Translations under genes and position numbers: made by a program
Assembly: GCA_030629485.1 (NCBI GenBank)
Contig: DAOVOW010000015.1
Coordinates: 1 to 13,599 of the forward strand
Reading direction: 5' to 3'
DNA from: a bacterium
GTDB lineage: Bacteria; Zixibacteria; MSB-5A5; GN15; FEB-12
Length of the DNA: 13,599 nucleotides
Notes under the pieces: generated by a model
What the model saw: only the letters and a program-made list of their open reading frames with translations
What the model was told of the DNA's origin: nothing
Databases searched by the model: none
Shown here: positions 1 through 13,599 of the stretch, piece by piece
Layout: each line of letters opens with the position of its first letter
Position numbering within the stretch: the stretch's first letter is position 1

Positions 1-3000
1 AAATCTCCGAAAGATCGCAGACGAATACAGGATCGGGGAAGTCGGGACAGACGACTGTCGGCGGCTGGTTCATCTCCAGCGTTACCGTGAAAGTCTGGTC
101 GCAGTAAGCGCCGCACGAATCCAGAGCGCGGATAGTCACGGTGACAGTTTCCGATGTCGTAGCATAATAGCACCATTCACCGGCGTGGATTTCTCCGGGA
201 CCGGAGATCAGTTCCCAGCCCAGGAAATTGCCGTCGATATCGGAGGCAACCATGGGTAGACAAAACGGAGTCGGTTCACATGTGAAAATCGTGGTGTCGT
301 TGGGACCTTCGCAGACCGGAGCACTATTGACAATAACGTCAACAGCCGTGCTGCAGGAGCTTTCGGCGCCGCATTCATCAACGGCGGTGAGAGTGATAAG
401 GTTGGTCCCTTCGATCGGCACAAAACAGACGATACCCTCGACCAATGGATATATTTCGCCATTAATAGTCACGATCACCGAAGCGAGGTTGTCGTCCGGA
501 TCCACGAAGGTAAGACCGTCTATGCAAAGCTCATCGTTGAGATTGCACACGAAGATCGGTTCAAAGAAGTCCGCGCATGCCACCACCGGAGCCTTGTTCA
601 TCTCAAATGTCACAGTGAACGTCGCTTCGCACGACTCCCCGCACTCGTCTGTACACAGCACGGTAACCGTGACCGCCTCGTCGCTGGCAGGTGTGTAGGT
701 CCAGTTGCCATCAACTATAGCGCCCGGTCCGGAAATAACAGTACAGCCGGTCAAATTGCCGTCGATGTCGGATGCCGTTACCGGCAATGAGATTTCAACG
801 GCGTCGCACAGGAAGATGACCGTATCGTTCGGAACATTGCAGACCGGCGCTTCGTTGAAGAGTACGGTCACGAAGATCTCATCGGCATCTTCACCTCCGC
901 AGTCGTCAAGCGCAGTCACCACGATCCGATACGTGCCGGCGGTGTCGGCGGCGAAGCAGACTTGTCCGGTAGCGGCGTTGTATGTACCGCCATCGACTTG
1001 GATGTTCACTATGTTGTTATTGACGTCGCTGATACCGACCGGCAGGGAAATATCGCCCGGACCACACAGCATCATGGTCGTATCCGGCGGCAATAGTACC
1101 AGCGGGTCAACGTTACATTCGACCGTAACTGTGAACTCACAGGTGTAAGTGCTGCACGGCGTGTGCACCATGATCTGGATGTCGTTCTGATTGGAGCATT
1201 CAATGTAGAAGCAGACTGAATGCGTGGCGTCGTCGTACCAGGCGTTGAGTCCCAGGACGTCAACGGTGATATAATCCGACTGGGGAATGCCGCTCAACGG
1301 GAGACACACGGTGTCCTGCACGCAGACGGACAGAGTGGTGTCATTGGGACATTCAATGGCGATGTCCTGGTCGGTCATAATGGTGAGGTTGATAGTAGTC
1401 GAAGCGGACTCTCCGCATTCATCAGTGGCCGTCACGACTATTTCGTAACTGCCGGCGGCATACGGTGTAAAACATACCAGTCCGTTATCGTAGTAACCCT
1501 GACTGGTGGTGATCTCGACGATATTCTGGTCGGCATCATTGATATCAACCGGCAGACAGATCGCCTGCGGGAAGCACAGGTAGAAGGAAGTATCAGCGAC
1601 CGCGCTCACTGTCGGTGCCTGGTTGATCGACACCGTGATATCCATCGTGTCCGCAGCCACCAGGCCGCAGGTGTCGGTAACCTCGACAATCAAGGAGTAC
1701 AGCCCGGCGCCTTCGGGAGTGAAACAGACCTGTCCGGTCTGCTCATCGTATGTACCCAGGTTGGTGATCAGAGAGCCATATCCGGCGATTGTGGTGACGT
1801 CCACGCAGATCGACTCACCGCCGCAAAGTAGCGTGTCGAAATCGTCCGGCAGAATCACAAACGGATCCACACCCGGATCGGCGGTGATCACGACAGTGTC
1901 AGCGTCTACCAGGCCGCACTCATCGGTTGCTTCTATGATAACTTCGTATGTCCCGGCCAGCAGAATATCCAGACAGACAGTTCCCTCGCTCACAGTGCCA
2001 AGGCTGCTGGTGATCTGGACGATATTCCCGTCGACATCTTCAATCGATACCGGCAGACAGACAGACTGCGGATAGCAGGGATAAACAGTAGTATCGACAG
2101 AGGCAGTAACACTCGGTGCCTGGTTCATGGTAATGTCAAACAGAACAGTGTCTTCCACAGCCTGACCACACGTATCGGTGACTATGACAACCAGCCCATA
2201 TGTTCCGGCCAGATCAATATCGACACAGACCTGTCCACTCTCCGGGTTGAACGTTCCGAGGTTGGTAGTTAGAGACTGGTATATTTCAATTGTATTTACA
2301 TCAACGCAAATCTGCGTCGGTTCACAGAGGAACCGCTCGAAGTCGGCACCCAGGTCAACGTAGGGAAGCTCGCCCTGGTCGGCTGTGATAACCAACGTGT
2401 CGGCGTCAACTTCGCCGCACTCATCAATGGCTTCAACGATCAACTCGTAGACTCCGGCGTCGTTGATTGTGATGCAAACCTCACCGTTGGCGTAAGCACC
2501 GATACTCGGTGTAATACTCACGATGTTGTCGTCAACGTCGGCTACCGTCACCGGAACGCAGACTTCTTTGGGATAGCAGGGATAGATCGTCGTGTCCGGC
2601 GGGAGATCGACCGTCGGTGCGCTGTTCATCATGATCTCAAAGGTAGCAGAACACTGGTCAGTTTGCCCTGTGCTATCTGTAGCCGTTACTTCGACATAAT
2701 AGGTTCCGGTGGTGTCGGGGGTGAGGCAAAGCTCTCCGGTAACGGGATCGATAGTGCATGATAATCCACCGGGAATCGTAAACAATAGATCGCCGGCGCC
2801 GTCATAGACTACGGTCGTTGGCAGACAGACTGTCTCACCGCTGCAGACAAAAAACTGATCGGTCGAACATTCGATCTCAACAGGATCCCAGATTATGTCG
2901 AATCTGGTGCAGTCGATCGAGGCGAGAATCTTGACGCGATCATCGGGGTGGCAGACCGAGTTGGGCGGATCATCCGGTCCCGGCTGATCTTCTCCGGCGT

Positions 3001-3676
3001 ACTTGACGCCGATGGTGAACAGTCCGACCTCGGTTGCCGTCAGGGTGGCCGTGGCCACGCCGTTCTCGTCGGTGACGGCAGTTGCTATCGGGTCACCCTC
3101 GATCGGTATCCCACATTCTTCCTGGTGGATGTAGAACTCAATCAGCCGATCCGGCATTGGGGCGTACACTCCATCGCAACAGTCCTGCTCCAGCAGGACC
3201 GTCACCTCGTATGGCACCTCGGTCATAATGTTATCCGGCATTGATATGATGGTCAAACGACTATCAATCTCCGTCAGTGGCGCAGTGGCCTCAGCACCGG
3301 AGCCGGAGGCGGTGACAATAATCGGCAGCCAGGCGTGAGACTCGTCTTCGATTACCCACAGCGCCTCAATAGTGCCATCGGCAGTAGCCTGGACGTCGAA
3401 CTGAGCAAGTTCAACGTTGCTGCCCGACTGATCCTGGTGCAACACCAGTATCGAAACCGTTTCATTGGAGGCAAACCCACTGCCCTCAATGAATACGGTG
3501 TCTCCCAGGGCACGACCTGCCGAATGCAAGTCCAATCGCGGTGACTCATCACCGACGACAGGGAGCGGCGACTCCGATCCGGCTGGGTTGGTAGCTCCGG
3601 CAGCAAAAACCGGCAAGGCACAAAAGACCAAGCCGATAGCTATAAACAGTAATCTCTGACACCTCGATCTTATCAT
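1..3676 (-). CDS. Giant secreted Ig-like repeat protein (3' end beyond window)
   Basis: One uninterrupted frame of 1225 codons runs from an ATG at 3676 off the left edge. The N-terminus is a signal peptide: MIRSRCQR, then a hydrophobic core LLFIAIGLVFCALPVFA, with probable cleavage near residue 26. Residues about 45-140 resemble an IPT/TIG-like fold (GDTVFIEGSGF) and about 145-245 a Big1/invasin-like fold (TDENGVATATL). From about residue 260 there are roughly 12 Ig-like repeats of 83-90 residues. Most begin N-x-A-P-x-V and contain a Cys before strand B, a second C-[LV]-P, a D-x-D-x-N loop, and T-D-x-C-G near the end. Residues 351-517 and 518-684 form two A-B super-repeats of exactly 167 residues. 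The paired cysteines suggest disulfides and the acidic loops possible Ca2+ sites; both are inference. It is probably a cell-surface or extracellular adhesin or structural protein. Its anchoring domain is not visible. It is transcribed alone. Confidence 0.9.
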   Translation of the reverse strand, partial: MIRSRCQRLLFIAIGLVFCALPVFAAGATNPAGSESPLPVVGDESPRLDLHSAGRALGDTVFIEGSGFASNETVSILVLHQDQSGSNVELAQFDVQATADGTIEALWVIEDESHAWLPIIVTASGSGAEATAPLTEIDSRLTIISMPDNIMTEVPYEVTVLLEQDCCDGVYAPMPDRLIEFYIHQEECGIPIEGDPIATAVTDENGVATATLTATEVGLFTIGVKYAGEDQPGPDDPPNSVCHPDDRVKILASIDCTRFDIIWDPVEIECSTDQFFVCSGETVCLPTTVVYDGAGDLLFTIPGGLSCTIDPVTGELCLTPDTTGTYYVEVTATDSTGQTDQCSATFEIMMNSAPTVDLPPDTTIYPCYPKEVCVPVTVADVDDNIVSITPSIGAYANGEVCITINDAGVYELIVEAIDECGEVDADTLVITADQGELPYVDLGADFERFLCEPTQICVDVNTIEIYQSLTTNLGTFNPESGQVCVDIDLAGTYGLVVIVTDTCGQAVEDTVLFDITMNQAPSVTASVDTTVYPCYPQSVCLPVSIEDVDGNIVQITSSLGTVSEGTVCLDILLAGTYEVIIEATDECGLVDADTVVITADPGVDPFVILPDDFDTLLCGGESICVDVTTIAGYGSLITNLGTYDEQTGQVCFTPEGAGLYSLIVEVTDTCGLVAADTMDITVSINQAPTVSAVADTSFYLCFPQAICLPVDINDADQNIVEITTSQGYYDNGLVCFTPYAAGSYEIVVTATDECGESASTTINLTIMTDQDIAIECPNDTTLSVCVQDTVCLPLSGIPQSDYITVDVLGLNAWYDDATHSVCFYIECSNQNDIQIMVHTPCSTYTCEFTVTVECNVDPLVLLPPDTTMMLCGPGDISLPVGISDVNNNIVNIQVDGGTYNAATGQVCFAADTAGTYRIVVTALDDCGGEDADEIFVTVLFNEAPVCNVPNDTVIFLCDAVEISLPVTASDIDGNLTGCTVISGPGAIVDGNWTYTPASDEAVTVTVLCTDECGESCEATFTVTFEMNKAPVVACADFFEPIFVCNLNDELCIDGLTFVDPDDNLASVIVTINGEIYPLVEGIVCFVPIEGTNLITLTAVDECGAESSCSTAVDVIVNSAPVCEGPNDTTIFTCEPTPFCLPMVASDIDGNFLGWELISGPGEIHAGEWCYYATTSETVTVTIRALDSCGAYCDQTFTVTLEMNQPPTVVCPDFPDPVFVCDLSEI

Positions 3677-3681
3677 CAGGT

Positions 3682-3686
3682 CCTCC
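3682..3686 (-). promoter_or_regulatory. Ribosome binding site of the Ig-repeat protein
   Basis: On the minus strand GGAGG lies 5 nt before the ATG at 3676. It supports that start codon, which also gives a well-formed signal peptide. Confidence 0.7.
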
Positions 3687-3881
3687 AAAAATTCATCAAG
3701 TCGCAGGAGTACGACCATGTCCGCGGAGCGACGTTGCGGATAGATGAACACCTCGTATCTGTTCTGAGGGCGAGTCACCCCCGCTAAGCGCAACATTTAC
3801 TTCTGCCAAGCTCCTACACAGTTCGTGTGACAAATCGTAGTAAGCTAATGTAGTAAGTAAGCTTAGTTTTTCAAGCATCAC

Positions 3882-6701: not shown

Positions 6702-6771
6702 GCGTTTTAGTCTTCCGGTTGTCCATATGCTTCGGTGTATTTGTCTCAATCGTGTACAAAGACCAGGCTGT

Positions 6772-6789
6772 CCGGAGGCCATCCTCCGG
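6772..6789 (+). promoter_or_regulatory. Perfect palindrome abutting the -35 of the kinase promoter (candidate operator)
   Basis: CCGGAGG-CCAT-CCTCCGG: two perfect 7-bp arms around a 4-bp centre. It ends at the base immediately before the TTGACA of the kinase promoter. A protein bound here would touch RNA polymerase, so it suits an activator or repressor site, possibly autoregulatory. The function is inferred from position. Confidence 0.45.
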
Positions 6790-6817
6790 TTGACACCCAT
6801 CATTCTGCCCTTATATT
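6790..6817 (+). promoter_or_regulatory. Sigma-70-type promoter for the two-component genes
   Basis: A perfect TTGACA (6790-6795) and TATATT (6812-6817) are separated by 16 bp. The start would fall near 6822-6825. This argues against kinase translation starting at the in-frame ATG-like position 6735 and favours 6861 (or, nearly leaderless, 6828). Confidence 0.65.
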
Positions 6818-6860
6818 GCGCATCAGTATGAAGAATCAGGTGGACAAAGCTGCAGGTAAG

Positions 6861-8582
6861 ATGAATGGTTCCAGACGGCCGGTGGAGTTCCGTGCCATAG
6901 CAAGCCAGATTATGGCTCTGGCCGACAGTGGCATTCCCCGAGCCGAGTTCCTTAAGGAAGTCTCCGAATTGCTGATCCGATTCAGTAAGTGCGATTTCGT
7001 CAAACTGGTCTTGATAAAGCGTGGACGCCGGTACCGCTGCGAGTTGAGCCGAGGCAAGGGAAAGGCATTCAGATTCGAAGAAACACCAACACCGCGAATC
7101 GCCGTGGATGAGCCCACCTGGACCTCTGACAAGAACGGTCCCCTGGAACATCTTTGCATCGAAATGATCGACAGACGGTTCGATCCTTCGCTGCCGTGGT
7201 TTACCGAGAATGGTAGTCTCTGGTCGGGCGACCTGATGAAAACTCCCCTGAGGGAACTCACTTCCGCTGCCGCCGGTGAGACGCTTGGACTCAGCATCGG
7301 CAAAGGCTCAAGGTCAGTGGCAATAATCCCGGTGGAATCCAGTTTGGATCGTATCGGTCTGTTGGAATTGGAGAGCAGTGCTGCGGACTTCTTCATCAAG
7401 CAGCAGATCGAATCATATGAATCAGTGGCTCAGACTCTCGGAATCGCGTTGTCTCATCGACGGCTGCGGGTAGAATTGCGCGAACGTGTCAAAGAACTAA
7501 CCTGTCTGTACGGAATCGCAAAGCTGGCAGCCCAGCCGGAAATCTCCTTGGAAGAAGTGCTGCAAAGCACGGTGGAATTGCTCCCACCGGGTTGGCTCTA
7601 CCCGGACATATGCTGTGCGCGCATTGGGCTGGATGACCGCATTTACACGACTCCGGGATTCAGAAGGCCGGTACGGAGCCTCAAGGCCAATATCGTAATC
7701 GACGGTCAGAAGCGCGGCTATGTCGAAGTCGGTTACGTGTGGGAGAAACCTCCGATCGATGAAGGTCCATTCCTGAATGAAGAGCGCAGTCTGATTGATG
7801 CTGTTGCCTTGGAGGTGGCCACAATCGTAGAACAGCAGCAAGCCGATGAAGAGAAGTCGAGACTGCAGGAGCAACTGAGACATGCCGATCGTCTTGCTAC
7901 CATAGGCCAGCTTGGAGCCGGGCTTGCCCACGAACTCAACGAGCCATTGGCTAACGTCCTTGGTTTCGCCCAATTGCTGGCAAAGAACGAGGGACTGCCA
8001 GACCAAGCCAAACAGGACATAGATAAGATCGTTTCAGCTTCTTTGCACGCTCGAGAAGTGATCTCAAAACTCCTTGTATTCGCCAGGGAGAAAACTCCCG
8101 AAAGAACGCGATTGCATATCAGTGCCTTGGTAGAAGACGGGCTCTATTTCCTCAAGTCGAGGTGTGCCAAGGCTGGTATCGAACTCTCCTGCAAGCTTGA
8201 GCCAGACTTGCCTGAGATCACTGCGGATCGATCACAACTTCTACAAGTGGTGACCAATCTGGTCGTCAACTCCATACAGGCTATGTCGCAGGGCGGCCAA
8301 CTCACGATTACAACAGCATGCGACGACGACCGGATATTGCTGACTGTTGAAGATACGGGAACCGGCATGAGTGAGGATACTATGAAACGGGTGTTCGACC
8401 CGTTCTTCACCACTAAAGACGTCGACCAGGGGACAGGATTGGGTTTGTCGGTCGTCCACGGTATCATCACCTCTCACAAGGGCACAATCGAAGTAGAAAG
8501 CGTAATCGGCACGGGAACCAAGTTCCTGATTCGGTTACCAATGGGAACGGTCAAAGGGAGTAGGAACTATTCTAATGACTAA
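6861..8582 (+). CDS. Soluble GAF-GAF sensor histidine kinase
   Basis: 573 residues from the ATG at 6861, which has AGG 4 nt upstream and lies about 37 nt after the predicted transcription start; 6828 is an alternative start. There is no signal peptide or membrane span, so it should sense a cytoplasmic signal. Residues about 10-200 form a divergent GAF-like domain. Residues about 205-330 are a second GAF-like domain of the type common in sensor kinases (LYGIAKLAAQPEISLEEVL ... LLPPGW). The dimerisation/phosphoacceptor domain carries His357 in AHELNEPL. The ATPase domain has the N-box TNLVVNSIQAM (Asn466, Asn470), the G1 box EDTGTGM (Asp498), the F-box DPFFTT and the G2 box GTGLGL. All catalytic boxes are intact. 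It overlaps the response regulator gene by 8 bp, so the two are translationally coupled partners. The ligand is unknown; redox or metabolite sensing would fit the downstream genes. Confidence 0.92.
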   Translation: MNGSRRPVEFRAIASQIMALADSGIPRAEFLKEVSELLIRFSKCDFVKLVLIKRGRRYRCELSRGKGKAFRFEETPTPRIAVDEPTWTSDKNGPLEHLCIEMIDRRFDPSLPWFTENGSLWSGDLMKTPLRELTSAAAGETLGLSIGKGSRSVAIIPVESSLDRIGLLELESSAADFFIKQQIESYESVAQTLGIALSHRRLRVELRERVKELTCLYGIAKLAAQPEISLEEVLQSTVELLPPGWLYPDICCARIGLDDRIYTTPGFRRPVRSLKANIVIDGQKRGYVEVGYVWEKPPIDEGPFLNEERSLIDAVALEVATIVEQQQADEEKSRLQEQLRHADRLATIGQLGAGLAHELNEPLANVLGFAQLLAKNEGLPDQAKQDIDKIVSASLHAREVISKLLVFAREKTPERTRLHISALVEDGLYFLKSRCAKAGIELSCKLEPDLPEITADRSQLLQVVTNLVVNSIQAMSQGGQLTITTACDDDRILLTVEDTGTGMSEDTMKRVFDPFFTTKDVDQGTGLGLSVVHGIITSHKGTIEVESVIGTGTKFLIRLPMGTVKGSRNYSND

Positions 8583-9921
8583 GCCGCAAGGACGACCTCA
8601 TTTATTAGTGGTGGACGATTCCCTTGAGACGCTTGAGGTACTCCAGCGGAACCTGTCTTCAAAGGGGTATGTTGTTCACACGGCGCCAAGTGTGGAGGCT
8701 GCACTGGAGGCTCTGGAAACGGAGTCGATTGATCTGGTTATCACCGATTACAGGATGCCCCGGGTGAGCGGCGTGGAACTGGTGCGACATGTCCGCGAAA
8801 ACCTCAAGGACACCGAAGTCATGATGATTACCGGGTACGCTTCGATCGGCGGAGCGGTAGAAGCCGTGAAGTATGGAGCCGAGGACTATCTAGCTAAGCC
8901 GTTTACCGATGACGAACTGTTCAGCGCCGTAGAGCGGGCTTTGGACAAGCTACATAAGCGACGCACGACCAGTGTGTTAGCCGCCAAGGTGACCGTTGAA
9001 TCCTACGGTATCCTTGGGGAGTCCAAGGCCATGCAGGGGGTATTCAAGGCCATAGGTAAAGCCTCCGGCACCGCGGCAACCGTCCTCATTACCGGGGAGA
9101 GCGGGACTGGTAAAGAACTGGTCGCACGCGCTGTCCATTATGGCAGCGTGCGCGCATCAGCTCCGTTTGTTCCGGTGAATTGCGGCGGCATACCCGAGAG
9201 TCTGCTGGAAAGCGAACTGTTCGGTCATGTAAAAGGAGCCTTTACCGGAGCCGTCGACACACGGGCCGGTTTCTTTCAGACGGCTGAAGGCGGCACCATA
9301 TTTCTCGATGAAATCAGTGAAACCAGTCTTGCTATGCAGGTCAAGCTTCTTCGCGTCCTTCAAGACAAAGAAGTATGCATGGTCGGTGACACGCGTTCAC
9401 GCAAGGTTGACGTGCACATCGTCGCGGCGACAAACAAAGACCTAAATGATCTTGTGGCGAAGGACCTTTTCCGCCAGGATCTTTTCTTCCGTCTCAATGT
9501 TATCACGATTGCCGTTCCTCCCCTGCGCATGAGGAATAATGATGTCCTCATTCTGGCTCGACACTTCGCTGCCAAGTACACCCTGGAAGCGGGCAGACCG
9601 CCTCTGAGTTTTTCAGACGACGCCCTGAACGCCTTGCGACATTATGATTGGCCAGGCAATGTAAGGGAGTTGGAAAACGTGATACAGCGACTTGTCGTCA
9701 TGACAGACGGCGAAATGGTCGATGCGCCGGACCTGCCTTCGCTGATGCGGTTTTCGGTGTCCCGACACATGGGTTTGCACCGCAAGCTGGCCGAAGTGGA
9801 GGGGGAATATATCAGAAACGTTCTGGCCAGCGTGGGTGGCAACAAGACTCGTGCCGCTGAGATACTGGGTATCGACCGCAAGACACTCCGAGAGAAGCTG
9901 AAAGAGAATAAAACCTCCTGA
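8575..9921 (+). CDS. NtrC-family sigma-54-dependent response regulator
   Basis: 448 residues in three standard parts. The receiver domain (about 8-120) has the acidic pair Asp14/Asp15, phosphoacceptor Asp58 in TDYRMP, Thr86 and Lys108. The AAA+ domain (about 145-380) has Walker A GESGTGKE (174-181), the sigma-54-contacting loop GAFTGA (221-226), Walker B FLDE (Asp245/Glu246), arginine fingers in FRQDLFFRLN and the WPGNVREL motif (359-366). A Fis-type helix-turn-helix closes the protein (about 402-444, NKTRAAEILGIDRKTLREKL). An intact GAFTGA means it should activate sigma-54 promoters. The gene starts inside the end of the kinase gene, with AGGA 9 nt before the ATG. Its likely target is the sigma-54 promoter about 220 bp downstream at 10138-10152, via the paired inverted repeats at 9997 and 10056. 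Confidence 0.95.
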   Translation: MTKPQGRPHLLVVDDSLETLEVLQRNLSSKGYVVHTAPSVEAALEALETESIDLVITDYRMPRVSGVELVRHVRENLKDTEVMMITGYASIGGAVEAVKYGAEDYLAKPFTDDELFSAVERALDKLHKRRTTSVLAAKVTVESYGILGESKAMQGVFKAIGKASGTAATVLITGESGTGKELVARAVHYGSVRASAPFVPVNCGGIPESLLESELFGHVKGAFTGAVDTRAGFFQTAEGGTIFLDEISETSLAMQVKLLRVLQDKEVCMVGDTRSRKVDVHIVAATNKDLNDLVAKDLFRQDLFFRLNVITIAVPPLRMRNNDVLILARHFAAKYTLEAGRPPLSFSDDALNALRHYDWPGNVRELENVIQRLVVMTDGEMVDAPDLPSLMRFSVSRHMGLHRKLAEVEGEYIRNVLASVGGNKTRAAEILGIDRKTLREKLKENKTS

Positions 9922-9933
9922 ATCCGAACAGTT

Positions 9934-9970
9934 CCACCGGGGAATTTCTCCCCGGTGGTTCGTATTTCCC
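9934..9970 (+). terminator. Rho-independent terminator of the two-component operon
   Basis: A perfect 10-bp GC-rich stem (CCACCGGGGA/TCCCCGGTGG, 9934-9958) with a 5-nt loop ATTTC, followed by TTCGTATTT. It lies 12 nt after the response regulator stop and separates this operon from the oxidoreductase operon. Confidence 0.85.
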
Positions 9971-9996
9971 CGTTTATGTCTACTTGTTCTGGAGAA

Positions 9997-10011
9997 GATT
10001 GAGACGCAATC
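9997..10011 (+). promoter_or_regulatory. Inverted repeat, candidate enhancer site 1 for the NtrC-type regulator
   Basis: GATTG-AGACG-CAATC, perfect 5-bp arms with a 5-bp spacer. Its core ATTG-N5-CAAT is shared with the repeat at 10056-10070. Its centre (10004) lies about 159 bp upstream of the start predicted for the sigma-54 promoter, inside the usual range for NtrC-family enhancers. Confidence 0.5.
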
Positions 10012-10055
10012 GTCCTGTCCGGTGATTTCCTCCAACTAAACTCCCCATCGCATCG

Positions 10056-10070
10056 CATTGCAATACAATG
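10056..10070 (+). promoter_or_regulatory. Inverted repeat, candidate enhancer site 2 for the NtrC-type regulator
   Basis: CATTG-CAATA-CAATG, the same ATTG-N5-CAAT architecture as the repeat 59 bp upstream. Its centre (10063) lies about 100 bp before the predicted sigma-54 start. A further small palindrome, GAGAT-A-ATCTC (10070-10080), adjoins it. Confidence 0.5.
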
Positions 10071-10137
10071 AGATAATCTCCAGGGTATCCCATCTCACTC
10101 GCTCACAGCAGTCGCTCGAACTTGCAACGCAGACATC

Positions 10138-10152
10138 GGCACACCGATTGCT
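10138..10152 (+). promoter_or_regulatory. Sigma-54 (RpoN) promoter of the oxidoreductase operon
   Basis: GGCAC-ACCGA-TTGCT fits the -24/-12 consensus TGGCAC-N5-TTGCW. The invariant GG (10138-10139) and GC (10150-10151) are separated by exactly 10 bp. Transcription would start near 10163, leaving a leader of about 185-230 nt. The gene directly upstream encodes a sigma-54 activator with an intact GAFTGA loop, which makes the match more credible. Confidence 0.65.
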
Positions 10153-10232
10153 AATGATGCCGAGTGTGAGTGCCAGGGTCGACGCATGCGGCGCCACCTG
10201 TAGGAGATAAAGACAGGTTGGAATTCTTGAGG

Positions 10233-10313
10233 ATGAGCAGACGTCAACAGCTTCTAAACAGACTGACAGAGAGAAGCACGGATCACATGTTCTTTGTGTC
10301 AGGATTGCGATGA
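10233..10313 (+). CDS. Possible 26-codon leader ORF
   Basis: Frame from an ATG at 10233 (MSRRQQLLNRLTER...) to TGA at 10311-10313. The stop overlaps the next small ATG as ATGA. It sits wholly in the predicted sigma-54 leader. The upstream ribosome binding sequence is poor: GAGG directly touches the ATG and GGA is 10 nt away. It may be only an open frame by chance and is listed because it chains with the next small ORF. Confidence 0.2.
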   Translation: MSRRQQLLNRLTERSTDHMFFVSGLR

Positions 10314-10342
10314 ACGAGAGTATCTGCAACCAAAGGAGGTAG
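10310..10342 (+). CDS. Possible 10-codon leader ORF ending in the next Shine-Dalgarno
   Basis: Encodes MNESICNQRR and stops at TAG (10340-10342). Its last codons are the AAAGGAGGT ribosome binding site of the ATG at 10348, so ribosomes terminating here could feed re-initiation. Its start overlaps the stop of the preceding 26-codon frame. Coding status is uncertain. Confidence 0.2.
   Translation: MNESICNQRR
10332..10340 (+). promoter_or_regulatory. Near-perfect ribosome binding site for an upstream start at 10348
   Basis: AAAGGAGGT, 7 nt before an ATG at 10348 that is in frame with the small cysteine protein and would add 16 residues. A second strong site (AAGGAGG, 10381-10387) precedes the ATG at 10396 by 8 nt. 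Two excellent sites in one frame suggest either two isoforms or an in-frame duplication of the initiation signal. Confidence 0.5.
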
Positions 10343-10395
10343 CAAGAATGCTGGGTGTAAGAGTGAAAGAAGCCGGGCCGAAGGAGGAGTTCGCA

Positions 10396-10677
10396 ATGTC
10401 AAGTTCTTATATATTTGTCGGACTTTGTGCAACGTGCAACAACGCCGCGGACTGTGTCTACCGGAAACGTCGTGGGGCGGATGCGATATACTGCGAGATG
10501 TTTGATGGTTATGCGCGTCCAAACGGCAACGGCAAGCGTGTCGCTACCATTGTGACGACACTGGAAATCGCGAAATCCACTGAATTCAAAGGCCTGTGTG
10601 TGAATTGTGAAGACCGTGATACCTGTAAGCTTCCCAGACCGGAAGGTGGTGTCTGGCATTGTGAGGAATACAAATAG
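10396..10677 (+). CDS. Small eight-cysteine protein with duplicated CxxC-type motif
   Basis: 93 residues from the ATG at 10396 (109 if translation starts at 10348, which also has a strong ribosome binding site). It holds two copies of a four-cysteine unit: GLCATCNNAADC...YCEMF at the N-terminal end and GLCVNCEDRDTC...HCEEY at the C-terminal end. The spacing in each is C-x2-C-x5-C followed by C 13-15 residues later. Each unit could bind zinc or an iron-sulfur cluster; the metal is not determinable from sequence. It opens the operon and lies 22 bp before the NuoE-like gene, so a role in the oxidoreductase complex, as a subunit, electron-transfer module or assembly helper, is plausible. I recall similar small proteins beside redox genes in anaerobes but know no named family. 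Confidence 0.8.
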   Translation: MSSSYIFVGLCATCNNAADCVYRKRRGADAIYCEMFDGYARPNGNGKRVATIVTTLEIAKSTEFKGLCVNCEDRDTCKLPRPEGGVWHCEEYK

Positions 10678-10699
10678 CGCATGCGGATGAAAGAGAGAA

Positions 10700-11551
10700 A
10701 TGGCATCTGAGGAAATATCGAAGATCGTAGAAAAGGTCGGCTCCAGCAAGGGAGGGCTTATCTCTATTCTGGAGGAGATACAGGCCAAGTACAGTTATCT
10801 GCCCGAGGATGCTCTGCGAGCCGTTGCGGAAGAAACCGGTCGCTCGCTCATTGACATATACGGCGTGGCGACCTTCTACCGAGCGTTCAGTCTCAAACCC
10901 CGAGGAAAGCATCTCATCTCTGTTTGTCTGGGAACAGCCTGCCACGTTCGGGGTGGACCGGCCATTGCGGAGGAGATTGAACGGCAGTTGGGAATCAAAG
11001 GCGGTGAGACGACTTCAGACAATGAGTTCACGCTGGAAACGGTCAACTGTCTGGGGGCCTGCGCTCTTGGTCCGGTAGTTGTTGCCGACGGGCACTACTT
11101 CTCCAAAATGAGAACCTCGATGGTTAAGGAGATACTTGATAAGGTAATCACCGGCCTGGATCGGGTTGAAATCGATACCGATCAGCGCGTGTTTCCGCTT
11201 GAGGTCAGTTGCGCCCGGTGCAACCACAGCCTGTTGGACCCGCGGAACGTGATTGACGGCCACCCGTCCATTCGCATAACGGTGTCTTTTGGCAACAAGC
11301 ACGGTTGGTTCTGCCTGTCGAGTCTCTATGGAAGCTACGAAGTGTCCTCGGAGTATGATATACCCACCGACACCATCGTTAACGTGTTTTGCCCTCATTG
11401 CCACGCTGAATTGATCGGTGGCTCCAAATGCGGTGAGTGCGGCGCGCCGATGGTGCCGATGATCGTCCGCGGTGGTGGTGTGGTCCAGATTTGCTCTCGT
11501 CGTGGCTGTAAGGGCCACTTGTTGGATCTGGGCGGCGCCGCATCGGAATAA
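10700..11551 (+). CDS. nuoE: NuoE-like [2Fe-2S] thioredoxin-fold subunit with long cysteine-rich C-terminal extension
   Basis: 283 residues. The first about 160 are a standard NuoE/HydC-type subunit: an N-terminal helical part (LPEDALRAVAEETG ... DIYGVATFYRAF) and a thioredoxin-like domain with all four [2Fe-2S] ligands, Cys76 and Cys81 (CLGTAC) and Cys117 and Cys121 (CLGAC). NuoE normally ends there. Here about 120 further residues carry C171xxC174, Cys205, C231xxC234, C244xxC247, Cys265 and Cys270, a pattern that looks like one or two zinc ribbons. The family passes electrons between NADH/FMN of the NuoF-like partner and other clusters. The partner gene follows after 44 bp. The start has only an AG-rich ribosome binding sequence (AAAGAGAG). 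The symbol reflects homology and does not imply Complex I membership, because electron-bifurcating hydrogenases use the same fold. Confidence 0.93.
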   Translation: MASEEISKIVEKVGSSKGGLISILEEIQAKYSYLPEDALRAVAEETGRSLIDIYGVATFYRAFSLKPRGKHLISVCLGTACHVRGGPAIAEEIERQLGIKGGETTSDNEFTLETVNCLGACALGPVVVADGHYFSKMRTSMVKEILDKVITGLDRVEIDTDQRVFPLEVSCARCNHSLLDPRNVIDGHPSIRITVSFGNKHGWFCLSSLYGSYEVSSEYDIPTDTIVNVFCPHCHAELIGGSKCGECGAPMVPMIVRGGGVVQICSRRGCKGHLLDLGGAASE

Positions 11552-11595: not shown

Positions 11596-13599
11596 ATGAG
11601 AAAGCTTGCGTCAGTAGAGGGACTCGGCGATTTCCGCCGCCGGGTTCTTGCAGAAAAGGATGTTGTATATGATCGGCCGACGCTGGTGGTATGTGCCGGG
11701 ACGGGAGGGCAGGCAAGCGGCGCCAACGATGTCATCAGGGTCATCAAACGATATGTTCTTTCCCGGAGCATGCAGGAGAAAGTCGCGCTCAGAATTACCG
11801 GTTGCCAGGGTTTCTGTGAGATGGACCCGTTCATCCTGATTGAACCCGGCAATCATTTATATCCCAAACTCAAGATGGAAGATGTCCCGAGAGTTATCGA
11901 GGCCGCTGTGGGCGGTTACGTAGATGAAGGTTTGATTTACAAGGAACCGCGTACAGAAAAACGTTATCACGATCAATTGGACATCCCGTTTTTCAAGAAG
12001 CAAACGCGCACTATTCTCGGTTATAACCAGAGTCTGGATCCAATAAGAATTCTCAGCTACATCGAACTGGGTGGATATGCAGCGGCGGAGAAAGTCCTGT
12101 CCAATCCCGATCCGGAGTGGATCATCCGAGAAGTTCAGAAAGCCGGCATAAGAGGCCGGGGCGGGGCGGGCTTCCCCACCGGCAAGAAATGGGAACTGGC
12201 GAGAGCTTCCGGCAACGGCCGGGGACAGAAATATGTTGTCTGCAACGCCGACGAAGGTGACCCGGGTGCTTACATGGATCGCAGTCTCCTTGAGGGTAAC
12301 CCACATGCCATCATCGAAGGAATGCTTATTGCGGGTATCGCTATCGGCGCTACCGAGGGCATAGTATACGTACGCAGCGAGTACCCGCTGGCTATCAAGC
12401 ACACTCTGATCGCTCTGCGTCAGGCGCGCGATGCCGGCCTTCTGGGAAAGAATATCCTCGGTACCGGCATCGATTTCGATATCGAGATCGTCCGCGGCGC
12501 CGGCGCTTTTGTTTGCGGTGAGGAAACGGCGCTGATCAGATCAATAGAAGGATTCATGGGAGAACCCCGTCAGCGACCGCCATATCCTATCGAGAAGGGT
12601 CTCTGGGGACATCCCACCTGCATCAACAACGTGGAAACACTGGCCAACATCCACGTGATCATCGACCACGGCGCCGAAGCATTCGCCAAGGTGGGGGTGC
12701 CGGGTAATACCGGAACAAAGATATTCTCATTGGTGGGGAAGATCAAGAACACCGGTCTTGTCGAAGTCCCGCTGGGTATGAAGCTCAGCGAGGTAGTATA
12801 CGACATCGGCGGCGGCCCGGTCGGCAATGCAAAGATCAAAGCGGTGCAGACAGGCGGACCGTCCGGTGGCTGCATCCCCGCCAATATGTTTGATATCCCC
12901 ATCGATTACGAAAGCCTTGCCAAGGTTGGATCGATGATGGGCTCCGGCGGCATGATTGTCGTAGACGACAATACCTGCATGGTTGACTTCGCCAAGTATT
13001 TCATGTCCTTTCTCAAAGACGAGTCGTGCGGCAAGTGTTTCACCTGTCGGAAGGGCACGCAGCGCATGCACGAGATCCTCGACGATATTTGCAAAGGCAA
13101 GGCAACCTTTGAGGATCTCGACCTGCTTGAGGAGTTGGCGCATGTCGTGAAGGATACCACCATGTGCGGCCTGGGACAGACGGCGTCCAACCCCGTTCTC
13201 AGCACCCTGCGATATTTTCGGGAAGAGTACGAGCGACACATCAGGGATAAAAGATGCGACGCCTTCGTCTGCAAGGAATTGGTGGGAGCACCCTGCCAGT
13301 CCGCTTGTCCGCTCGGCACCGAGGCGTGGCGCTACGTGGCCCACATCTCGCGCGGCGAATACAATGAAGCTTACACCGTCATCCGCGATGCGAATCCTTT
13401 CCCGTCCGTGTGCGGCCGGGTTTGCCATCACCCCTGCGAAGAAAGGTGTCGCGCCGGTACGAGTGGTGGCGACCCCATAGCTATTCGGTCGCTCAAGCGC
13501 TTCATTACCGACCGCGTCGATCCATCGCTATACAAACCGCATAGAGTGGCGTGGACTGATGGTGAGCCTCCCCAGATAGCGGTAATCGGCGCAGGTCCC
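11596..13599 (+). CDS. nuoF: NuoF-like NADH:FMN/iron-sulfur subunit fused to GltD-type flavoprotein (3' end beyond window)
   Basis: 668 codons are present and the frame is open at the right edge. Residues 1-125 are an N-terminal thioredoxin-like domain as in HydB, with Cys33 and C70QGFC74; the expected fourth ligand, the second Cys of CxGTGC, is Gly38. Residues about 150-550 are the NuoF core: FMN site GRGGAGFPTGKKW (187-199) and CNADEGDPGAY (216-226), NADH-binding region GAGAFVCGEETALI (301-314), and [4Fe-4S] ligands C478GKC481FTC484 plus Cys524. HydB proteins then carry ferredoxin domains. Here residues about 554-620 are instead the two-cluster domain of GltD/dihydropyrimidine dehydrogenase (Cys554, 559, 567, 571 and Cys606, 610, 614, 618), and the window ends at IAVIGAGP, the start of the FAD-binding fold. 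This suggests NADH electrons are shared between FMN and a second flavin, as in bifurcating or NAD(P)H-coupling enzymes; this is inference. An AGGAG site lies upstream of the ATG. Confidence 0.93.
   Translation, partial: MRKLASVEGLGDFRRRVLAEKDVVYDRPTLVVCAGTGGQASGANDVIRVIKRYVLSRSMQEKVALRITGCQGFCEMDPFILIEPGNHLYPKLKMEDVPRVIEAAVGGYVDEGLIYKEPRTEKRYHDQLDIPFFKKQTRTILGYNQSLDPIRILSYIELGGYAAAEKVLSNPDPEWIIREVQKAGIRGRGGAGFPTGKKWELARASGNGRGQKYVVCNADEGDPGAYMDRSLLEGNPHAIIEGMLIAGIAIGATEGIVYVRSEYPLAIKHTLIALRQARDAGLLGKNILGTGIDFDIEIVRGAGAFVCGEETALIRSIEGFMGEPRQRPPYPIEKGLWGHPTCINNVETLANIHVIIDHGAEAFAKVGVPGNTGTKIFSLVGKIKNTGLVEVPLGMKLSEVVYDIGGGPVGNAKIKAVQTGGPSGGCIPANMFDIPIDYESLAKVGSMMGSGGMIVVDDNTCMVDFAKYFMSFLKDESCGKCFTCRKGTQRMHEILDDICKGKATFEDLDLLEELAHVVKDTTMCGLGQTASNPVLSTLRYFREEYERHIRDKRCDAFVCKELVGAPCQSACPLGTEAWRYVAHISRGEYNEAYTVIRDANPFPSVCGRVCHHPCEERCRAGTSGGDPIAIRSLKRFITDRVDPSLYKPHRVAWTDGEPPQIAVIGAGP

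Follow-up and report, generated by a model that had tools for sequence, protein, structure and literature searches.

An NtrC-family regulator gene followed by a redox operon raises the question of whether the regulator controls that operon and, if so, through which DNA sites. The original prediction placed here a sigma-54 promoter with two ATTG-N5-CAAT dyads upstream as the regulator's binding sites, and a terminator directly after the regulator gene. The window analysed is an entire contig of 13,599 bases, the right end of which truncates the operon; the genome comprises 2.47 Mb in 437 contigs and is 83% complete.

Genes flanking the intergenic region

The sensor histidine kinase (6735–8582, plus strand, with a predicted GTG start) matches Pfam HisKA and HATPase_c and has two predicted GAF domains and no obvious membrane segment, its top 19-residue hydropathy being 1.26. 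The sensor part was modelled by structure prediction as tandem GAF-like domains (pLDDT 87.5), for which the best solved fold matches among those listed are phytochrome and phosphodiesterase GAF proteins, with TM values by query length of 0.40–0.58. The response regulator (8575–9921, plus strand) contains the receiver, the sigma-54 AAA+ domain (Sigma54_activat) with GAFTGA in the translation, and the Fis-type HTH (HTH_8) of the NtrC family, each above the Pfam cut-off. Its identity across 58 other loci is 60–77%, the HTH stretch GNKTRAAEILGIDRKTLREKLK is strongly conserved among them, and the paralogues listed from its own genome are 29–47% identical and have different helices. Assignment to a characterized equivalog was tried and rejected for NtrC (GlnG) (424.4 against a cut-off of 558.6 for TIGR01818, and 349.7 against 620 for NF008176), AtoC (NCBIfam, 428.8 against 714) and ZraR (NCBIfam, 392.7 against 760).

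Downstream on the same strand are the genes for a small Cys-rich protein (10396–10677, with an alternative in-frame ATG at 10348 behind AAAGGAGGT), which has no Pfam or NCBIfam match, a NuoE-like subunit recognised by Pfam that carries a conserved Cys-rich C-terminal extension (10700–11551), and a NuoF-GltD fusion (11596–13599) in which Pfam finds the NuoF domains and the start of the GltD part before the contig ends. A search of Rfam with 9700–10700 returned a single match (E 0.54), well below the gathering score. At the other end of the window, a 1265-codon open frame on the minus strand (2–3796) leaves the contig; its repeated Ig-like, Cys-containing segments suggest a large protein that is secreted or exposed at the surface.

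For comparison, NuoE was searched in 61 genomes (this one and 60 relatives), of which 29 relatives gave a full or partial close match (loci L003–L031), with fragments elsewhere, and longer DNA stretches were taken for 32 places. A scan of named genomes with a NuoE alignment supplied the best 80 of 581 loci, all from records titled as metagenome-assembled genomes, with the record titles used as a guide only. The titles among these 80 include Zixibacteria (the nearest named relatives of the window), Latescibacterota, Acidobacteria, Planctomycetes, Bacteroidetes, Deltaproteobacteria, Gemmatimonadetes, Aminicenantes, Coatesbacteria, Hydrogenedentota and Spirochaetales. Below, L handles denote loci and G handles genomes.

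The predicted sigma-54 promoter

The predicted -24/-12 element, CGGCACACCGATTGCT at 10137–10152 on the plus strand, has the GG-N10-GC form and a single mismatch to TGGCAC-N5-TTGCW. It is the sole one-mismatch match in the window, where matches with up to two mismatches number 5 against 5.96 expected, so that match quality alone gives it no weight; its weight comes from conservation. The element is retained in the genus, in other families of the order and, by record title, in other phyla. The predicted promoter before the NuoE/NuoF-GltD operon is thus where it was placed and recurs far outside the genus, and a start near 10163, as a prediction, is the usual expectation from an element at this position. 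The genome also encodes rpoN (PF04552, E 1.5e-57), the gene on which the prediction had been made to depend; rpoN and a conserved GG-N10-GC promoter at the target are both expected of an NtrC-family system.

The 5' leader that would follow, 10163–10395, is long. It includes a 70-nt run invariant across the four closest genomes (10200–10269) and, ahead of the small Cys-rich gene, two short frames, one of 26 codons that opens with an ATG near 10233 and one of 10 codons; the leader of L006, a locus from the same genus, is much shorter and lacks the invariant run. No repeat of 10159–10350 was found elsewhere in the genome, and 10163–10300 has no unusual fold (z 0.44).

The ATTG-N5-CAAT dyads are confined to the closest genomes

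Both dyads are present as described, GATTG-AGACG-CAATC at 9997–10011 and CATTG-CAATA-CAATG at 10056–10070, with centres 59 bp apart and about 159 and 100 bp before the predicted start. As a chance event such a pair would be only slightly unusual, since two or more ATTG-N5-CAAT sites also arose in 5 of 200 shuffles of the window and 33 of them occur across the 2.47 Mb of the genome. The dyads are found exactly, or with a single base changed, solely in the four closest, near-identical genomes of the same genus, and they are missing from L006, which keeps the promoter and a palindrome that in the window spans 9939–9971. Among the four closest genomes, dyad 1 is invariant at 13/15 positions and dyad 2 at 15/15, compared with 30/33 for the palindromic site and 13/16 for the sigma-54 element; taken alone, this comparison therefore favours dyad 2. 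The whole region is invariant at 410/475 positions (86%) in the same genomes, and the sigma-54 element is no better conserved than that.

Over 63 regulator-to-operon regions, ATTG-N5-CAAT occurs in seven (shuffles mean 1.07, max 5), of which four are the near-identical genus group. L029/L095 carries the exact motif twice, at a distance of 77 bp and with one copy overlapping a candidate promoter, and L023/L089 and L146 carry it once each. A regulator that binds the dyads, with the palindrome at 9934–9958 acting as a terminator only, would accord with the spacing of the dyads and their distance from the predicted start, with their invariance in the closest genomes and with the two copies at L029/L095. 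Their absence from L006, their rarity across the regions and the high background invariance of the genus group argue against this reading, which we regard as exceedingly unlikely. Conservation in relatives had been named as the check on both the dyads and the -24/-12 element, with loss of the dyads to count against them: the element is kept widely, and the dyads did not hold up as the regulator's sites. A genus-specific role for them is possible.

A conserved tandem palindrome about 180 bp before the predicted promoter

The sequence immediately behind the regulator gene is conserved much farther than the dyads. It consists of a 15-bp palindrome of the form GGGGAA-N3-TTCCCC with a weaker second copy 18 bp on: copy A, GGGGAATTTCTCCCC, at 9939–9953 and copy B, GGTTCGTATTTCCCC, at 9957–9971, whose left half is the weaker one (both plus strand). 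Together these proposed enhancer copies form a tandem palindrome with the consensus GGGGAAWTTYTCCCC-N3-GGTTCAAAATTCCCC, about 180 bp before the promoter.

In a test that presupposed no motif, we counted all 4+4 dyads with spacers from 3 to 11 in the 63 regulator-to-operon regions (L101 and L102, copies of L071 and L072, were omitted) and in first-order shuffles. The top dyad was GGGG-N7-CCCC, in 33 of the 63 (shuffles mean 1.26, max 5), and the next, CGGG-N9-CCCG and GGGA-N5-TCCC, are parts of the same GGGGAA-N3-TTCCCC palindrome. We then defined a pair as a palindrome matching at least 9/12 positions located 130–215 bp before a sigma-54 element matching at least 9/11. Such a pair is present in 52 of 100 upstream regions, against a mean of 1.0 and a maximum of 3 in shuffles and 2 for the reversed pattern; with the palindrome held to at least 10/12, it is present in 39 of the 100, and shuffles and reversed control both gave 0. 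The 100 regions come from both genome sources and include near-duplicates such as the four genus genomes; they omit L101, L102, L104, L111 and L130 (by length, the contigs of G-genome loci), L114, L136, L165, L171, L177 and L179 (less than 400 bp upstream), and also L073 and L100.

A logo from 45 of the 52 pairs, without the near-duplicates L069, L070, L071, L096 and L135 and the poor pairs L115 and L164, reads GGGGAAWTTYTCCCC, N3, GGTTCAAAATTCCCC, and the palindrome starts 182.5 bp before the sigma-54 element (sd 16.9, range 133–207). L115 and L164 are counted in the 52, and L164 also among the named loci with regulator and pair described below; L164 has a perfect palindrome farther up, yet was scored on a poor pair. 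The 22 logo rows from outside Zixibacteria and the G-genome set give nearly the same consensus, and in L168, titled Spirochaetales, GGGGAATATTTCCCC lies 203 bp before TGGCATATTTTTTGCT. The palindrome is also present at the regulator-adjacent loci L076, L086 and L095, where the sigma-54 score is just 8/11. These comparisons point to the two palindrome copies, 9939–9953 and 9957–9971, rather than the dyads, as the regulator's likely binding site.

The palindrome tracks target promoters

The same sequence had been read as the terminator of the kinase-regulator operon. A terminator-like hairpin is indeed formed at 9934–9958 (plus strand), directly past the stop codon, by copy A together with its flanking bases, and a terminator scan picked it up with the tail TTCGTATTTC; that much of the reading stands, while the tail is T-poor and the stretch read as a terminator contains the conserved tandem palindrome. 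Were the palindrome an intrinsic terminator, its conservation would reflect RNA folding and not protein binding. The stem is indeed strong (-22.3 kcal/mol for 9928–9980, z -4.2), and the palindrome lies within 120 nt of the regulator stop in 32 of the 52 pairs. In the other 20, however, it is farther off or no regulator is found upstream in the DNA taken, and a T-rich tail, with at least five T in the 8-nt window just past the palindrome, accompanies only 6 of the 52. A terminator would, moreover, explain neither why a second copy is present nor the spacing from the promoter.

Loci at which regulator and operon are separated bear directly on this choice. In eight G-genomes the site is at the operon and no regulator lies upstream within the DNA taken; seven of these (G039, G040, G042, G045, G050, G052 and G056) have a regulator orthologue of 67–71% identity elsewhere, the match in G042 containing one stop, and in G054 none was found among the 60 best candidates scored. 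The pair is therefore present where the regulator gene lies elsewhere, which assigns the palindrome to the target promoter and not to the 3' end of the regulator gene. Conversely, at L199, L200, L205 and L207 the regulator is detached and no palindrome of at least 10/12 is found in the roughly 1.5 kb behind it, whereas the distant operon has the site. Detached regulators without the palindrome, together with operons or target genes that have it, thus indicate that the palindrome goes with target promoters. On this evidence a terminator alone is very improbable, although in the window the hairpin at 9934–9958 may serve both as enhancer and in ending transcription.

In G042, G045, G050 and G074 the site, a sigma-54 element and the small Cys-rich gene come directly after the regulator; the first three of these genomes have another site and promoter at the operon, which lies elsewhere. 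Such an order, with the small Cys-rich gene as the only one behind the site and sigma-54 element, is seen at L201, L202, L203 and L206, and suggests that the small Cys-rich protein may itself be a principal target.

Co-occurrence of site, regulator and operon

Among the named loci, 28 have regulator and pair, 17 the regulator without the pair, none the pair without the regulator, and 16 neither (Fisher p 5.9e-6, relatedness ignored); loci with no regulator match and less than 4.5 kb upstream were left unscored. Inspection by eye of the 17 of 45 regulator loci that lack a pair at these thresholds revealed a tandem motif in 7, a single or partial motif in 4 and none in 6. Three genomes with the operon and no palindrome-promoter pair (G023, G025 and G026) yielded no regulator orthologue among the 60 best candidates scored, and the orthologue is likewise missing from G029 and G033, where the upstream DNA or the operon is incomplete. 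In eight genomes without a close operon copy (G002, G003, G019, G022, G031, G034, G035 and G036) there was no regulator orthologue above 45% identity, a result that for G002, G019 and G034 rests on the 60 best candidates scored. G057 departs from this pattern: it has an orthologue with the site behind it, yet no clear site or promoter at the operon, where the sequence is partly masked. The association of regulator and operon thus recurs far beyond the genus, and the proposed link from the kinase-regulator pair to the NuoE/NuoF-GltD operon is well supported by comparison.

The motif might instead be an enhancer for another activator or for a general factor of these genomes: sequence comparison does not reveal which protein binds, and of the 18 matches to PF00158, the sigma-54 activation domain, in the genome, 15 are strong. 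The distribution of the motif across 80 genomes, this one included, argues otherwise. A composite pattern of palindrome, spacer and sigma-54 core found 15 distinct sites (reversed control 1), of which 12 are at the kinase-regulator/operon system, one is at a contig edge (G074) and two are inside other coding genes (G027 and G076). The tandem motif with up to three mismatches gave 62 strand matches against 15 for the reversed control; with up to two mismatches there are 18 sites, 17 at the regulator or operon, that of G070 being tentatively placed through agreement in coordinate and size with the named locus L103, and one at the G074 contig edge. Sites with exactly three mismatches are a mix of this system and other places. 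The G079 site and a three-mismatch G076 site, both from class-level relatives, are each preceded by orthologues of the kinase and the regulator, and a sigma-54 element can be seen by eye farther on. In the window's own genome, the tandem pattern matches the window site (one mismatch) and one three-mismatch site. The single 15-bp palindrome with up to two mismatches has 92 forward matches there against 67 for the reversed control, and is for that reason too weak for a regulon search. Being nearly confined to the kinase-regulator/operon system and tracking the presence of the regulator, the tandem motif is very unlikely to serve a different activator or a general factor.

The region is thus, on this comparison, very probably a sigma-54 promoter with its enhancer, through which (9939–9971) a dedicated two-component system drives the redox operon. 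The comparison itself shows that the site pair and the regulator are conserved, that they occur together, and which genes the operon contains in relatives; the switch mechanism is of a known kind. From what is known of the family, the soluble tandem-GAF kinase would phosphorylate the NtrC-family regulator, which would bind the tandem palindrome at 9939–9971 and, with the roughly 180 bp of intervening DNA looped, activate sigma-54 RNA polymerase at 10137–10152. The operon switched on would comprise the small Cys-rich protein, NuoE and NuoF-GltD and, by the gene order of relatives, presumably also a NuoG-like ferredoxin and a glutamate-synthase-domain protein.

Content and possible function of the operon

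At L071, from the same genus, GltD is complete and the operon extends further, to genes for a NuoG-like ferredoxin, a glutamate-synthase-domain protein and a PPDK_N (PEP-synthase-type) protein; NuoF-GltD forms a single frame of 1065 aa there, and the ferredoxin, of 227 aa, has a gene of its own. The ferredoxin and glutamate-synthase-like genes are found downstream in 76 of the 80 loci with at least 6 kb of downstream DNA (duplicates included), a GltD part in 66 and a match to the PPDK_N protein in 9. Among solved structures, HydB-type chains are the closest to the NuoF part. The glutamate-synthase-domain protein (L071:12878–14470) is 73–86% identical in 17 other loci under many record titles, with a mean column identity of 85% over 18 sequences. 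A sequence search found no solved relative for it, and it was modelled poorly (pLDDT 55.6), with fold matches to FMN-dependent hydroxy-acid oxidases and also to unrelated TIM barrels.

The ferredoxin and glutamate-synthase-like genes occur with no detected GltD at L097, L112, L116, L119, L120, L122, L125, L127, L135, L149, L151, L160, L167 and L175; these 14 operons suggest that GltD may be dispensable for the complex. The N-terminus of the PPDK_N protein (L071:14782–17532) matches kinase residues 240–379 (window 7455–7874), the second GAF-like domain, as though this enzyme and the kinase responded to a common signal.

The operon has the NuoE- and NuoF-type core subunits expected of the electron-bifurcating Bfu family, which is also marked by a full set of core cluster ligands, those of the C-terminal ferredoxin-like part of BfuB included, and by bifurcating activity. 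It shares with that family and with the Stn transhydrogenase, as described in the main texts (PMC9304861, PMC10482914), these subunits, a NuoG-like ferredoxin and a GltD module. Assignment as Stn was rejected: in StnC, according to the main text of PMC10482914, GltD is fused to a NuoG domain, whereas here it follows NuoF in the 1065-aa frame of L071. The glutamate-synthase-domain protein is a further difference from Bfu and Stn as described in those texts. The main text of the Bfu survey does not contain the word glutamate; no third substrate of glutamate type is named there, and for 17 clades no obvious function is given (PMC9304861). That the product is a bifurcating glutamate-synthase-type complex is, from gene content, a fair hypothesis and no more.

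Relation to known regulatory systems

NtrB/NtrC, AtoS/AtoC and ZraS/ZraR have the same domain plan of kinase and regulator as the pair described here, and the likeness to systems of the NtrB/NtrC type extends to palindromes upstream of a GG-N10-GC promoter at the usual enhancer distance in a genome with rpoN. The NtrC dyad is also of 5-N5-5 form. Unlike NtrC, AtoC and ZraR, the regulator here scores below the NCBIfam cut-offs for all three, and its proposed site consists of GGGGA-N5-TCCCC half-sites in two copies 18 bp apart, with a redox operon as the proposed target. The main text of a Clostridiales survey places sigma-54 activator sites 100–250 bp before the promoter (PMC6615313), and in the sigma-54 regulons reconstructed for Clostridiales and Desulfovibrio, as presented in the main texts, many activators control one adjoining operon through multiple sites (PMC6615313, PMC4641369), an arrangement resembling the present one. 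The main text of the former contains no GGGG or CCCC string, and that of the latter no GGGGAA, TTCCCC or CCCC string. In the open-access literature, taken as text without figures or supplements, we found no description of this unit of regulator, site and operon.

More tentatively, and with somewhat less than even confidence, we propose that a single regulatory unit is kept across many phyla, made up of the tandem-GAF kinase, the NtrC-type regulator, whose recognition helix is nearly fixed, the tandem enhancer of GGGGAA-N3-TTCCCC form and the sigma-54 promoter. It might control a previously undescribed complex of electron-bifurcating, glutamate-synthase type and so couple the NADH/ferredoxin state with nitrogen assimilation or some related reaction. 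For the regulator of these mostly uncultured bacteria, the palindrome gives an exact, testable candidate operator and relocates where to look for it. It also illustrates that an enhancer behind a regulator gene can be mistaken for a terminator when one sequence is read alone. The strong conservation of the glutamate-synthase-domain protein suggests an important redox reaction, and control of the operon would offer a handle on when cells need it.
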